DNA from: a virus
DNA length: 48,533 bases
Reading direction: 5' to 3' (one strand)
Virus record (IMG/VR): IMGVR_UViG_3300010399_000047
Coordinates: 1 to 48,533 of that record
Made by a program: the position numbers and the translations under genes. Positions 4,377 through 48,533 of this stretch are shown piece by piece. The notes under the pieces were generated by a model. That model was given only the letters and a program-made list of their open reading frames with translations, searched no databases and was not told the origin of the DNA. Numbering within the stretch: the first letter of the stretch is position 1; each line of letters opens with the position of its first letter.

Positions 4377-4706
4377 ATGACCCAAGACCACAAAATTATC
4401 TTAACACGGCAATGCTGGAGATCTTTCCGAAAATTTATAGAAATGAAGAGGTTACCAGCACTTAGTAAAGGACCTTCTGAATATCATTTCGTTTACACCC
4501 TTATGCCAAAAGAGTATTACCCGCGTATCCACTTTATCTGTGAATATTCTCAAACCCACGTAATCATCAGTTTTCATCAAGACTTAAGCCAGCATAATTC
4601 CATAAAAAGAAGCGACATCTTAATGCAATGGCACAAAACGATTAATGAATACCGGACACTTTATCCTAAACTTATAAAATTAAAAGAAATGCGAAACAGT
4701 CTATGA
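4377..4706 (+). CDS. Hypothetical protein, 109 aa
   Basis: Starts after an A-rich leader without a clear Shine-Dalgarno sequence, and overlaps the next gene by ATGA at 4703. It is basic and aromatic (RQCWRSFRKFIEMKRL, then YTLMPKEYYPRIHFICEY). Alternating strands and helices suggest a compact alpha/beta fold. No family recognised. Confidence 0.55.
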   Translation: MTQDHKIILTRQCWRSFRKFIEMKRLPALSKGPSEYHFVYTLMPKEYYPRIHFICEYSQTHVIISFHQDLSQHNSIKRSDILMQWHKTINEYRTLYPKLIKLKEMRNSL

Positions 4707-4945
4707 TCTGGCAAAATTTAACAAAATTACCACCGACATGCCCGCTATGTGATGAAGAACTGGAGCATGTGGAAAAAGAACTAGTATGGGAATGCCTGAG
4801 CTGCGACTTCAGTATAAGCAGTCTTAAATTTAAAGAAATCGTCAGCAACCTGGTCGATGATGACGTTTTTACCGGCAGCTGTGAAGAGTGTGGAAAGAAA
4901 ATTAACCCGCGCTACCGGATATGCCGGCAGTGCGAAAATCAATAA
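4703..4945 (+). CDS. Double zinc-ribbon protein, 80 aa
   Basis: Two complete four-Cys sites are visible: CPLC with CLSC (first half) and CEEC with CRQC (second half), joined by a short helical linker. Coupled to the preceding gene by overlap. Double ribbons of this kind usually mediate nucleic-acid or protein contacts; no specific role is evident. Confidence 0.7.
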   Translation: MIWQNLTKLPPTCPLCDEELEHVEKELVWECLSCDFSISSLKFKEIVSNLVDDDVFTGSCEECGKKINPRYRICRQCENQ

Positions 4946-4954
4946 TTAAAATAT

Positions 4955-5236
4955 ATGAACAAATTACAATATACCCAAGAGTTAGCAGCTAGACTAGGCA
5001 AAACATCTTTTGAAACAGAACAGATAGTGAATTCTGCGATTAGATTAATCTATGAAATAGTGCGCAGAGGAGAAAAATTAAACCTCTCCGGTTTTGGCCA
5101 ATTTAGCGTGAGCCATAGGGCAGCGCGCGTTGGAGTTAATCCGCGGCCCCCTTACCCTAAGATCACCATACCAGCATTAAACACGCCCAAGTTTAAAGCC
5201 GGCACGGCTTTTAAAGAGGCGGTGAAGTTGAGGTAA
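4955..5236 (+). CDS. HU/IHF-family DNA-bending protein, 93 aa
   Basis: Length and layout match HU/IHF: an N-terminal helical pair, GFGQF at residues 46-50, the DNA-arm region with VNPR (61-64), IPALNTPKF and KAGTAFKEAVK at the end. HU-type proteins bind the minor groove as dimers, bend DNA and help recombination, replication or packaging. The arm is Pro-rich (NPRPPYPK), slightly unlike bacterial HU. Only three bases separate it from the next gene, so the two are co-translated. Confidence 0.92.
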   Translation: MNKLQYTQELAARLGKTSFETEQIVNSAIRLIYEIVRRGEKLNLSGFGQFSVSHRAARVGVNPRPPYPKITIPALNTPKFKAGTAFKEAVKLR

Positions 5237-39105: not shown

Positions 39106-39244
39106 CTTTTGGGCGCAAAGTAGAGTATTTTTATACAGTTTGGTGCCCCTGGTCGGATTCGAACCGACAATCTTTCCTTACGAGGGGAATACTTGATCCA
39201 ATCAAGCTACAGGGGCATTAGCTCTACTTTGCGCTTAAGCGGCG
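39106..39244. repeat. Long inverted repeat around the tRNA
   Basis: AAAAGCGCC and GCGCAAAGTAGAG (39115-39127) on the left pair with CTCTACTTTGCGC (39222-39234) and GGCGCTTTT on the right; only a six-base middle differs. The tRNA lies in the loop. GCGCC-TTTTG-GGCGC on the left can act alone as a minus-strand terminator. Confidence 0.7.
39141..39216 (-). tRNA. tRNA-Thr (anticodon CGT)
   Basis: Minus strand, 76 bases with encoded CCA. Acceptor GCCCCTG/CAGGGGC, T-arm GTCGG-TTCGAAT-CCGAC, D-stem GCTT/AAGT, anticodon loop CTCGTAA with U33. The anticodon stem TTCCC/GGAAA has one C-A mismatch, so the tRNA is a little odd. It would read ACG codons. It may lie in the same transcript as the RNA at 39262-39423. 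Confidence 0.85.
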
Positions 39245-39261
39245 CTTTTTTCTATGCAAAT

Positions 39262-39423
39262 AAAAAACTTGTACCTTACCCATAGTGCAAGGCGCAAAAC
39301 CCCTTTCAGGGAATACGCTTGGTAGCGCATGGACTTTTTAGTTTCCTTACACTACAGGTACGACACAAGTTTATGTCGGAGTTTTGCTTTATTAGGCGGT
39401 CCAGGCCTATTTTAAAAAGTTCT
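39262..39423 (-). ncRNA. Unassigned structured RNA, about 160 nt
   Basis: From promoter 39430-39457. On the minus strand GTACC/GGTAC (39361-39357 with 39275-39271) and a 10-bp stem (39354-39345 with 39292-39283) close a junction. It holds AAAC/GTTT, the hairpin ATGCGC-TACCAA-GCGTAT and the hairpin CCCT-GAA-AGGG. A run of six Us follows the closing stem. CGACA-TAAACTTG-TGTCG is an alternative fold. Not tmRNA, RNase P or 6S as far as I can see. Confidence 0.5.
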
Positions 39424-39429
39424 GCCTAA

Positions 39430-39457
39430 ATTATAACAGGTTTTTAAAAGAGTGCAA
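39430..39457 (-). promoter_or_regulatory. Promoter of the structured RNA and tRNA
   Basis: Minus strand TTGCAC (39457-39452), 16-base spacer, TATAAT (39435-39430). Expected start near 39423. Confidence 0.7.
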
Positions 39458-39759: not shown

Positions 39760-40719
39760 ATGTTACTTAGCGAAGCTATAACTCAATATGTTAGCTGGAT
39801 AAATTACGCTAAACGGGAATCTACTAGAAAAAGTTACCGCTACCACCTTATGCAATTTGCTCTATATATGAACAACTGTAATGTAGAGCAGGTTAATCTT
39901 GGCAATATTTTAGGCTACTTGGATACTATGACCGTAATAGGTTGGGATAGAGATCAGTATATGCCTAAGTGCATTGCTTTAAGAAAGTTTTTTGAATTTC
40001 TGGGAAAACAGAAAATAAGCAATTTCGATTACACCTTAATACCGATTATAGAAAAAGAAAATTACAAGTTGCCGAAAGTCGCTATCCCCGAAGATTATTA
40101 TAAAGTTTTAAAAGCCATTCCCGACAATAATGACCCTCGACACATTCGTAATAAACTAATGCTGATGATGTTTAAAGATACCGGTATGAGGTTAAGCGAA
40201 AATCTCTCTTTAAACAGGGACATGGTGGTTACTAAAAGGCAGGTAGAGGTTAGGGATAAAGATGGAATTATTGTTGAAGTTAAAACTTTATTCTCTACAA
40301 CAGTTGTTACTAAAAAAAGCAAAAGACCACACCCGATTAGGGAAGTTTTTTGGACACCTGAAACCCAAAAGCAGCTGGAAAAGTGGCTTAAGAAATTACA
40401 ACACTTAGAAAAAATAATAAAAGGTATAGATCTGCAGGCATTGTATATATCAGTCACGGGAATTAAATGCGGACACAGGTTGAATAAAAGCGGTGCAACA
40501 GAAGTAATGCGCAGACTTTCCCACGAAGCGGGATTATTGTATGTAATGAACAGCCACTCTTTGAGGCATTTATTTGGACATGATATGGGAAAAAGTGGGC
40601 TACAGGACAGCAATGTTTCTATATTATTAGGCCATGCAAACCCACAAAGCTCCTATATTTACAGGCTCTTAAATAGCCCAGAAATGGCTAATTTGGCCGC
40701 AAATACTATACGATCTTAA
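39760..40719 (+). CDS. Tyrosine recombinase (integrase), 319 aa
   Basis: Residues 1-85 form the SAM-like N-terminal arm domain (ESTRKSYRYHLMQFALYMNN). Catalytic set: R144 (TGMRLSE), Lys near 185-188, H266 and R269 (HSLRH), H292 (LLGHANP) and Y301. All are present, so it should be active. It would move phage DNA into the host at an att site, possibly tRNA-linked. It carries its own promoter and attenuator. No excisionase is obvious; the basic 43-residue protein at 40810 is a candidate. Confidence 0.93.
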   Translation: MLLSEAITQYVSWINYAKRESTRKSYRYHLMQFALYMNNCNVEQVNLGNILGYLDTMTVIGWDRDQYMPKCIALRKFFEFLGKQKISNFDYTLIPIIEKENYKLPKVAIPEDYYKVLKAIPDNNDPRHIRNKLMLMMFKDTGMRLSENLSLNRDMVVTKRQVEVRDKDGIIVEVKTLFSTTVVTKKSKRPHPIREVFWTPETQKQLEKWLKKLQHLEKIIKGIDLQALYISVTGIKCGHRLNKSGATEVMRRLSHEAGLLYVMNSHSLRHLFGHDMGKSGLQDSNVSILLGHANPQSSYIYRLLNSPEMANLAANTIRS

Positions 40720-40733: not shown

Positions 40734-40772
40734 GTAGGTGACAGGTGTGACAACCTCAATATTTTAATGAAT

Positions 40773-40801
40773 TTGACACAATATTAATTCTAAATTAATA
40801 T
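40773..40801 (+). promoter_or_regulatory. Promoter of the 43-aa gene
   Basis: TTGACA (40773-40778), 17-base spacer, TAATAT (40796-40801). The ATG at 40810 is about eight bases after the -10 box, again suggesting a leaderless or near-leaderless message. Confidence 0.75.
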
Positions 40802-40809
40802 TTAAACAT

Positions 40810-40941
40810 ATGACCAAGAAAAAGAAAGTTCGCATTTTATCTGAAAAAGATTACAGAAAATCGATTCGAGACAGACAAAGACTTAAAACAATTAAACCTT
40901 TAGTAGAAGAAATACATCGAATTACAAGTAAGATTAAATAG
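40810..40941 (+). CDS. Small basic protein, 43 aa
   Basis: Lys/Arg-rich and helical (TKKKKVRILSEKDYRKSIRD). Its charge and location after the integrase suggest a DNA-binding protein such as an excisionase or regulator, but no motif proves this. Transcribed from the promoter at 40773. Confidence 0.55.
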   Translation: MTKKKKVRILSEKDYRKSIRDRQRLKTIKPLVEEIHRITSKIK

Positions 40942-40964
40942 TTTTTGGGTGACAGGTAGAGCTA

Positions 40965-40970
40965 TATAAT
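40965..40970 (+). promoter_or_regulatory. -10 box of the early-operon leader
   Basis: TATAAT within GCTATATAAT; the -35 region (TTTTTG or TTTTGG) is poor, so it may need an activator. GTGACAGGT lies between, and also upstream at 40739. It precedes the switch at 40994-41139. Confidence 0.45.
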
Positions 40971-40993
40971 TTCTCTTTACAATAAAATATCAG

Positions 40994-41139
40994 GTAGTCG
41001 TTTAATCCCTTAAAAGGCTTATAAACATTGACTTACTCCTGTGGCTCTGACATTAAGTTTAAGAAATGTCATGGGAAGTAGGAGACAGGTCTAAAGCTTA
41101 TAAATATTGATTAAACGACTACAAAAGTAGTCGTTTTTT
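40994..41139 (+). promoter_or_regulatory. Terminator/antiterminator switch of the early operon
   Basis: Antiterminator arms GTAGTCGTTTAATC (40994-41007) and GATTAAACGACTAC (41109-41122) are a perfect 14-bp match. The right arm is also the left arm of the terminator AAACGACTAC-AAAA-GTAGTCGTTT (41113-41136, Ts to 41139), so only one can form. Between lie the hairpin TGACAT/ATGTCA (41048-41053 with 41066-41071), CTCCT/AGGAG or CCTGT/ACAGG, and two 15-base direct repeats (41017-41031 and 41096-41110, one difference). It acts like a riboswitch or protein-controlled attenuator. Ligand unknown. Confidence 0.8.
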
Positions 41140-41207
41140 CTTTTGTCTCCCCAGCTCATTTCGGTTAGGGGCTTGGGGTATAAGTGAAAAACCTAAGAAA
41201 TAAACAT

Positions 41208-41312
41208 ATGAATCAAAGAACAATACAAATTCTCTCCGCCTTTACGGCAGAAGACCTTATTAACCCTACAACCGCGGCAAGTATTGCTATGGCTATGGAA
41301 AATGCAGAATAA
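41208..41312 (+). CDS. Tiny protein, 34 aa
   Basis: First frame after the switch, ATG 41208. Reads RTIQILSAFTAEDLINPTTA. It may be a real small protein or a leader peptide. No strong ribosome site. Confidence 0.45.
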   Translation: MNQRTIQILSAFTAEDLINPTTAASIAMAMENAE

Positions 41313-41353
41313 ATAAATAATTAAGTTTCTCACAGAGAAACAAAAGGAAAAAA

Positions 41354-41581
41354 ATGGAAGCAGAATTAGATTACGGTCAAAAAGCTGTAGGTTTTACCTT
41401 TAACCCTAGTGGAGACCCAGATGTGCAAAAGGTTAAAGAGTTATATGCAGAGATAATCAATATCTGTAATGATCTAAAAATTGCTGTAGGCCCAGGTGAA
41501 AAGGCAAGATTGCTTTCTGTAGCAATTACAGAAGCTCAAACCGCTCAAATGTGGGCAGTAAAAGGAATAACATTTAAATAA
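41354..41581 (+). CDS. Probable Acb2/Tad1-type cyclic-nucleotide sponge, 75 aa
   Basis: DYGQKAVGFTFNPSG (6-20) and AITEAQTAQMWAVK (57-70) match, from memory, the Acb2/Tad1 hairpin-domain family (earlier a DUF). Members of this family bind the cyclic nucleotides used by CBASS or Thoeris defence and so block it. Two helices joined by a short loop are expected. AAGGAAAAAA precedes the ATG. First sizeable gene of the early operon, the usual place for anti-defence genes. Family membership is recollection; activity is inferred. Confidence 0.7.
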   Translation: MEAELDYGQKAVGFTFNPSGDPDVQKVKELYAEIINICNDLKIAVGPGEKARLLSVAITEAQTAQMWAVKGITFK

Positions 41582-41584
41582 CTA

Positions 41585-41971
41585 ATGTCCATCAGGACAG
41601 AAAACAACAAAAATATGCCAGAGATCGTATTCCCATCCGAATGGGTAAAAATCGGGGTTAACGTCAAGCAGGGTGACACAATTAGATTCCTTGATGCAGG
41701 AACTTTAGACCCTGAGACAGAGCGCTATATATTCCAAGTGGAAATTTATAGCAATGGTTTGATGACAGAAGTTAAGAAGTTCAATCTTAACAAAACCAAC
41801 TACAAAGTTATATCTGCTCTTTACGGAAGCAACAGCGATGCTTGGGTTGGTAAAGAAATGATCGTTAATTCAGTTAAGACTAGAAATCCACAAACTGGTT
41901 TATTGGTAGACAGCATAGCTTTAACTGCTCCTGCTACTACTGCTAACACAACTGCTGCAACAGCAGCCTAG
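41585..41971 (+). CDS. Conserved-type phage protein of the replication region, 128 aa
   Basis: VFPSEWVKIGVNVKQGDTIR then FNLNKTNYKVISALYGSNSD and WVGKEMIVNSVKTR resemble a small beta-rich family I have seen near phage replication genes, of no known function. The in-frame ATG at 41615 (MPEIVFP) may be the true start; neither has a clear ribosome site. Ala/Thr-rich tail. Could bind single-stranded DNA, but unproved. Confidence 0.6.
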   Translation: MSIRTENNKNMPEIVFPSEWVKIGVNVKQGDTIRFLDAGTLDPETERYIFQVEIYSNGLMTEVKKFNLNKTNYKVISALYGSNSDAWVGKEMIVNSVKTRNPQTGLLVDSIALTAPATTANTTAATAA

Positions 41972-47935: not shown

Positions 47936-48533
47936 ATGAAAACACTATATAAATCACTAAAAGCAGGACTTACAAGCCACGGGGACTATAAATGGAAAGT
48001 CGGGGAATGGCGACACCAAGACGGAGAAATAAAAGCTTGCAATAACGGTTTCCACGCCTCTGAAAATATCATTGACGCAATGGGTTTTGTTAATATGGAA
48101 TGTTTGGCTTTAGTGGAAGTAAAAGGTAAATCCGATAAGTCTGAAAAAGACAAGCAAGCGTGGAGCGACATGAAAATTAAAAAGGCCTGGTATTGGAAAA
48201 AAGAAGACTCCGTTGCTCTTTCTATCTTTGCTGCAGAATTAGTTATTAAAAACTACGAGAAGAAATATCCTGATGACAAAAGGCCAAGGGAAGCTATAGA
48301 AGCAGCTAAGAAGTGGTTAGAAAATCCGACAAAAGAGAACGAGTCAGCAGCATGGTCAGCAGAGTCAGCAGCAAGGTCAGCATGGTCAGCAGCAAGGTCA
48401 GCATGGTCAGCAGCATGGTCAGCAGAGTCAGCAGCATGGTCAGCAGAGTCAGCAGCATGGTCAGCAGAGTCAGCAGCAAGGTCAGCAGCAAGGTCAGCAA
48501 GGTCAGCAGCAAGGTCAGCAGCAAGGTCAGCAG
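47936..48533 (+). CDS. DUF7666-type protein with Ser/Ala repeat tail (runs off the window, resumes at 2)
   Basis: N-terminal 130 residues form a folded domain I associate with DUF7666 (KTLYKSLKAGLTSHGDYKWK, then CNNGFHASENIIDAM). From about 48341 it becomes repeats x-S-A or x-S-A-A with x being W, E or R. Codons TGG, GAG and AGG change x by one or two bases, so repeat slippage can alter it. The gene ends at 232. The repeat may form an extended coiled or fibrous tail. Assembly breaks here; true length is unknown. Confidence 0.75.
   Translation, partial: MKTLYKSLKAGLTSHGDYKWKVGEWRHQDGEIKACNNGFHASENIIDAMGFVNMECLALVEVKGKSDKSEKDKQAWSDMKIKKAWYWKKEDSVALSIFAAELVIKNYEKKYPDDKRPREAIEAAKKWLENPTKENESAAWSAESAARSAWSAARSAWSAAWSAESAAWSAESAAWSAESAARSAARSARSAARSAARSA
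48391..48521. repeat. Right copy of the 131-bp terminal direct repeat
   Basis: Matches 1-131 with one mismatch. Twelve more repeat bases follow before the window end, so the two ends cannot be joined without choosing a repeat number. Confidence 0.85.

Follow-up and report, generated by a model that had tools for sequence, protein, structure and literature searches.

An orphan terminator/antiterminator leader, most likely ON by default, at the head of an uncultured phage's early operon

Introduction

To our knowledge, riboswitches are rare in phages, and we know of few cases in which early phage genes are controlled by RNA. The phage riboswitches described in one study, including the glutamine riboswitch of phage Melnitz, belong to known host classes (PMC9004378). 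RNA-only antitermination operates in early phage operons through the put RNA of HK022 (PMC9378689), and Tn916 combines an insulating terminator with an RNA antiterminator within an integrating element (PMC11658703).

Here, we describe an untranslated leader with which the early operon of an uncultured phage begins, a predicted RNA of about 160 bases that has two alternative folds, one for read-through and one for stop. The leader lies in a 48.5-kb virus record (IMG/VR IMGVR_UViG_3300010399_000047); the window that we analyzed is the whole of this record, 48,533 nucleotides. An initial annotation had placed a terminator/antiterminator switch here and suggested a riboswitch or host-signal sensor of an undescribed class. 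The anatomy of such a switch is borne out, with an exclusive terminator and antiterminator and a structured core at the head of the early operon, but the proposed new class of riboswitch or sensor found neither homologs nor an Rfam family. We conclude that the leader is an attenuator that is an orphan by sequence, that it is real and non-random, and that it is most likely ON by default.

Results

Inspection of the record located the pairing, the terminator, and the direct repeats that had been claimed for the leader (Table 1). The perfect 14-bp pairing, P1, is present exactly as described. The 10-bp terminator is present as well, but the right arm of P1 serves as its left arm rather than its right: the stem consists of 41113-41122 paired with 41127-41136, followed by a T run. 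P1 and the terminator are mutually exclusive, as 41113-41122 is common to both. Between the arms of P1, the two near-identical 15-base direct repeats that had been noticed are real and form part of longer 18-nt repeats (16 of 18 positions identical), which stand opposite each other around P2 and pair to form it. The core also contains the hairpin that had been reported at 6 bp, although the fold gives this apical hairpin 7 bp plus 3 bp. In a candidate pseudoknot, CUUAAA in J1/2 would pair with the apical-loop sequence UUUAAG. Directly 3' of the terminator, at 41149-41178, the leader is followed by another strong hairpin (CCCCAGC...GGGGCTTGGGG), which has no T run behind it.

Table 1. Positions of the leader elements and of neighboring genes in the window.
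Feature	Position	Strand	Basis and remarks
Tyrosine integrase gene	39760-40719		Upstream of the leader; PF00589
Basic 43-aa ORF	40810-40941	+	ORF call; directly upstream of the leader, not necessarily part of the switch
Candidate -10 element, TATAAT	40965-40970	+	Read from sequence; putative RNA start ~40977-40982
P1 left arm (antiterminator 5' strand), GTAGTCGTTTAATC	40994-41007	+	14/14 complementary to 41109-41122
Alternative hairpin that takes up the P1 left arm when the terminator forms	40996-41019	+	Constrained fold; isolated energy -3.1 kcal/mol
Direct repeat copy 1 (18 nt)	41014-41031	+	Gives P2 5' strand and AUAAACAUU internal-loop strand
P2 (41015-41020 with 41094-41099) and its interior	41015-41099	+	MFE fold
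Apical domain P3-P4-P5	41030-41091	+	-21 kcal/mol; z -3.2
Direct repeat copy 2 (18 nt)	41093-41110	+	Gives P2 3' strand and AUAAAUAUU internal-loop strand
P1 right arm	41109-41122	+	41113-41122 doubles as left arm of the terminator
Intrinsic terminator (10-bp stem, AAAA loop, T-rich tail)	41113-41141	+	Scan; -12.0 kcal/mol
Acb2/Tad1 hairpin-domain gene	41354-41581	+	PF24729, 2.3e-10; among the first genes after the switch

The anatomy alone does not separate a metabolite, a protein, an antisense RNA, or a ribosome as the trigger of this switch. The rival triggers that we weigh are compatible with an attenuator, and our confidence in each of them refers to the trigger. A ribosome could act through a 14-codon leader ORF (41066-41110, MSWEVGDRSKAYKY), whose stop at 41110 abuts the start of the P1 right arm; the shared arm would lie under a ribosome at this stop. 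Translation-coupled attenuation of this kind is nevertheless very unlikely, as the ORF has no clear ribosome-binding site and no run of control codons, an ORF so short is expected by chance, and a ribosome would block P1 and the terminator alike.

The competition between P1 and the terminator is beyond chance, and the statistical case for it is strong. Within the 245 nt that precede it, the terminator left arm (taken together with 8 nt upstream) finds complements of up to 14 nt. Among 20,000 dinucleotide shuffles, the longest competitor was 12 nt, found in 4 cases, and 14 was never reached. We also examined 206 terminator-like hairpins from 564 kb, comprising the phage record, its relatives, and other fetched loci. 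Only for the leader hairpin does the upstream competitor exceed 8 nt. When folding was compared with that of shuffled sequences, z was -4.8 for 40985-41145 and -5.6 for the P1-closed domain (40994-41122). When the 105-nt core was shuffled 3,000 times, the best repeat had 15 matching positions, short of the 16/18 observed.

Repeats and inverted arms might also act at the level of DNA, as protein-binding or integrase attachment repeats or as a 129-bp mobile element, and the RNA pairing would then be incidental. Consistent with this, the outer arms bound a 129-bp segment with inverted ends, the int gene ends at 40719, and GGTGACAGGT-type repeats start at 40737, 40948, and 41081, with exact copies nowhere else in the genome. 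However, the flanks differ, so that there is no target-site duplication, the arms have no second copy, and the integrase matched SAM-like and catalytic domains alone. A DNA-level element also leaves unexplained the canonical terminator that shares an arm and the effect of the core on folding, and we consider it highly improbable. We weighed operator/attP and transposon readings and set them low on the repeat, arm-copy, and integrase-domain results, and a miniature transposable element was rejected because its flanks differ, the arms are single-copy in the record, and the related records contain no copy. The three copies of GGTGACAGGT or GGAGACAGGT (40737-40746, 40948-40957, and 41081-41090, + strand) all lie <350 bp behind the integrase gene, the third in the P3/P4 strand of the leader.

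The energetics of the switch were obtained from a thermodynamic model, and they bear on folding rather than on transcription or regulation. Under constrained folding, the P1 state has an energy of -43.5 kcal/mol and the terminator state one of -42.0 kcal/mol; the two are thus nearly isoenergetic, and the error of folding energies is larger than the 1.5 kcal/mol gap between them. In the free ensemble, P1 had a probability of 0.91 and the terminator 0.09. P1 alone accounts for 14 bp and -18 kcal/mol. When chains were grown from 40980, P1 was finished at 41122-41124, at which point the terminator right arm had not yet been transcribed. Because P1 is finished ahead of the 3' arm of the terminator, read-through is the predicted default. 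With the terminator imposed, the alternative hairpin of Table 1 takes up the P1 left arm. This arm is identical in sequence to the terminator right arm, and exchange between the two states would thus be flat branch migration, with a predicted initial cost of about 6.5 kcal/mol and a flat course thereafter. Termination is predicted for RNAs whose 5' end lies at 40998 or later. For starts near 40980, extending the RNA to 41160 moves the equilibrium prediction toward the terminator, and the balance between P1 and the terminator therefore depends on the 3' end of the RNA.

This balance is also sensitive to the core. When the core was shuffled with the arms and terminator retained, the mean P1 probability fell from 0.94 to 0.33, and that of the terminator rose to 0.66. 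Single changes in the core lowered P1 below 0.5 in 10 of 303 cases, most of them in P2. In the folding model, the ~100-nt core thus sets the balance between P1 and the terminator, and its pivot is P2, the helix of the two repeats.

Such a core could be that of a metabolite or ion riboswitch, in which a bound ligand would stabilize P1 and P2 and allow read-through. The core is structured beyond chance with its pivot at P2, and the internal-loop sequence is repeated in a pseudo-twofold arrangement. Terminator exchange through strand displacement is the geometry of ON-type platforms, a known type (PMC11077080), and riboswitches occur in phages of streamlined hosts (PMC9004378). We nonetheless regard a metabolite or ion as an unlikely trigger: our Rfam scan was negative, our searches for related leaders found no conserved aptamer or homolog, and the 14-bp P1 is predicted to win without ligand. 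The strength of P1 suits a default-ON attenuator, whose antiterminator would have to be blocked, no less than it suits a ligand-gated aptamer.

The collection of homologous leaders that the initial annotation had proposed came back empty by Rfam, BLAST, a single-sequence covariance model, and pattern scans. Rfam assigned the leader to no family at threshold and gave chance matches only up to E = 10; within the same limit, the T-box covariance model was unmatched, and the C4 and isrK families did not match the leader. BLAST of the leader against annotated phages and plasmids returned noise only. Related records were gathered through the Acb2, 128-aa, and terminase proteins, and in the 17 related records tested, the leader was absent by BLAST and by the covariance model. 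This model was built from a single sequence and scores its own leader at 198 bits; the sole other match, at 13.9 bits (E 8.3), is at the level of chance. Note that a single-sequence model has little reach, and its result is thus weak negative evidence for distant homologs. Pattern scans of IMG/VR gave 0 matches to the paired repeat motif and 28 chance-like matches to the single repeat motif. One of these 28, near a prophage edge (L048, 1-130), contains GTCGTTTAA and GGCTTATAAACATTGA in another spacing, which we took as chance. Since no homologous leader was found, there is neither covariation nor a conserved aptamer to support a riboswitch class, and the proposal of a new class, which draws on anatomy, is not supported.

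In protein searches, Acb2 returned 10 loci in unrelated contexts, the 128-aa protein returned L012/L013 and L016-L020, and the terminase returned one distant match; searches with the 415-aa protein and the integrase found no related loci. The nearest relatives of the replication module, L012 and L020, share replication proteins with the phage, and both have a different region upstream of their replication genes, without such a leader. The L012 record yielded no integrase, and leader and integrase may thus perhaps have come together, although this link is weak. L020 (JALHRJ010000037.1) is a phage-like contig binned in a Cyclobacteriaceae MAG, which reflects either its host or a binning error. 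In L007, one phage contig carries two tandem Acb2-like genes (4551-4769 and 5018-5236). The ATSTF-like repeats of a tail-type protein, together with TGA read as a residue in the relative L006, may hint at a Patescibacteria host.

The leader RNA would arise from a promoter near 40970, with its start about 14 nt ahead of P1. The candidate -10 element is accompanied by a poor -35 (TTTTTG at 17 bp spacing) and is absent from the consensus scan list. From 41140 to 41700, that scan listed no sigma-70-like site in the + orientation, and early transcription thus probably runs through the leader. A pattern scan of the + strand from 41140 to 5784 found no further terminator-like site. Downstream of the leader, the + strand carries a short ORF, the Acb2/Tad1 gene, and the gene of a 128-aa protein common to other phages. 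It also encodes a DnaG-type zinc ribbon protein and a 415-aa protein that may be an NTPase, judging by its NSSGGKS motif. The Acb2-like gene and the replication genes previously reported downstream are present; the former is confirmed by its profile match, and the zinc ribbon gene is confirmed as well. A riboswitch that senses a host defence signal (e.g., a CBASS cyclic nucleotide) via the pseudo-twofold core, and so admits read-through into an operon that starts with a matching Acb2-type sponge, would be one explanation of the leader, and we consider it extremely improbable.

Upstream of the leader, the basic 43-aa ORF is preceded by a promoter-like site, TTGACA-17-TAATAT. Its product had no family match in a profile search and no relatives were found among phages; it is possibly an RNA-binding regulator. 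In a protein-gated attenuator, an RNA-binding protein, perhaps this product or a dimer on the duplicated motif, would stabilize or block P1. The position of the small basic ORF upstream on the same strand is consistent with such gating, and the two repeats facing each other across P2 would suit a dimer. Yet the product has neither a family match nor relatives found among phages, any binding is putative, and we rate a protein trigger as possible but somewhat unlikely. Within the TTGACA-17-TAATAT site, 60 bp behind the integrase gene, lies a perfect AT-rich palindrome, AATATTAATT-CTA-AATTAATATT (40780-40802), a candidate operator or core site for recombination.

Two further observations concern the wider record. 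Both of its ends (48306-48533 and 1-150) lie in one low-complexity repeat (AGCAGCATGGTCAGCAG with variants), and the map may thus be circular, cut in the repeat. A tRNA-Thr(CGT) gene with complementary sequences flanking it is encoded on the minus strand within 39141-39450; about 250 bases of apparently structured noncoding DNA adjoin it, and the Rfam match there is to the tRNA only.

Discussion

We propose that the leader is probably a cis-acting transcription attenuator of the early operon that is ON by default, as judged from the folding model. The core would fold co-transcriptionally, and the arms of P1 would pair once 41122 emerges, before 41127-41136 exists. With the terminator left arm held in P1, polymerase would continue into the early genes, among them the Acb2-like, 128-aa, and primase-like ones. 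The terminator would form instead if the P1 left arm were trapped in the 40996-41019 hairpin, if a factor or an antisense RNA bound to it, or if remodeling of P2 and the core made it unavailable. Early transcription would then end at about 41139. We infer that this termination is regulated. Our best guess at its purpose is control of lysogeny or timing by an RNA- or protein-based repressor, and a metabolite ligand seems less likely than either.

One way to name an RNA trigger is immunity of the P4/IsrK type, which amounts to the same attenuator with its trigger specified. The terminated leader, or a fragment of it, would act in trans and force termination of new early transcripts, and a resident prophage would thereby repress early operons, its own as well as those of related superinfecting phages. 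The segment 41109-41122 pairs upstream (40994-41007) and, over 10 nt, downstream (41127-41136), as P4 CI RNA is complementary to seqA and seqC (PMC4825925). The leader is located at the head of the early operon, an integrase is present, and no CI-type repressor was recognized among the subset of phage proteins scanned. However, this A-B-C topology is not specific to the P4 family and is common to every terminator/antiterminator leader, and the repressor scan covered part of the proteins. Rfam gave no match to C4, isrK, or another family, and no antisense match of at least 12 nt was found elsewhere in the phage. We therefore consider an RNA trigger of the P4/IsrK type quite unlikely.

If the default-ON attenuator is real, an RNA fold gates the early operon just ahead of the replication and anti-defence genes, and its trigger becomes a concrete, testable question. 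The leader is a single orphan example, and general claims are limited accordingly.

Several known systems resemble the leader in part. Like P4 CI RNA and Gifsy-1 IsrK (PMC4825925), it is an untranslated early-operon RNA with complementary segments on both sides and a terminator that can be read through; unlike them, it has no sequence or Rfam similarity to that family, and a processed trans-acting RNA is hypothetical here. With the HK022 put RNA (PMC9378689) and Tn916 canT (PMC11658703), it has in common that RNA alone would control termination, and that this happens in the early region of an integrating element. Those RNAs are processive antiterminators that act on many terminators, whereas in the leader, pairing would directly open one terminator. 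Phage riboswitches (PMC9004378) are likewise phage-borne RNA switches but, in contrast to the leader, of known class. ON-type riboswitch platforms and classic leader attenuators have the same architecture: two exclusive hairpins with a common arm, an intrinsic terminator that precedes the first gene, arms separated by a structured domain, and an antiterminator that comes first. Compared with known attenuators, the leader carries no known aptamer, T-box, leader-peptide, or protein-binding signature, and it is set apart by a P1 that, at 14 perfect base pairs, is unusually long.
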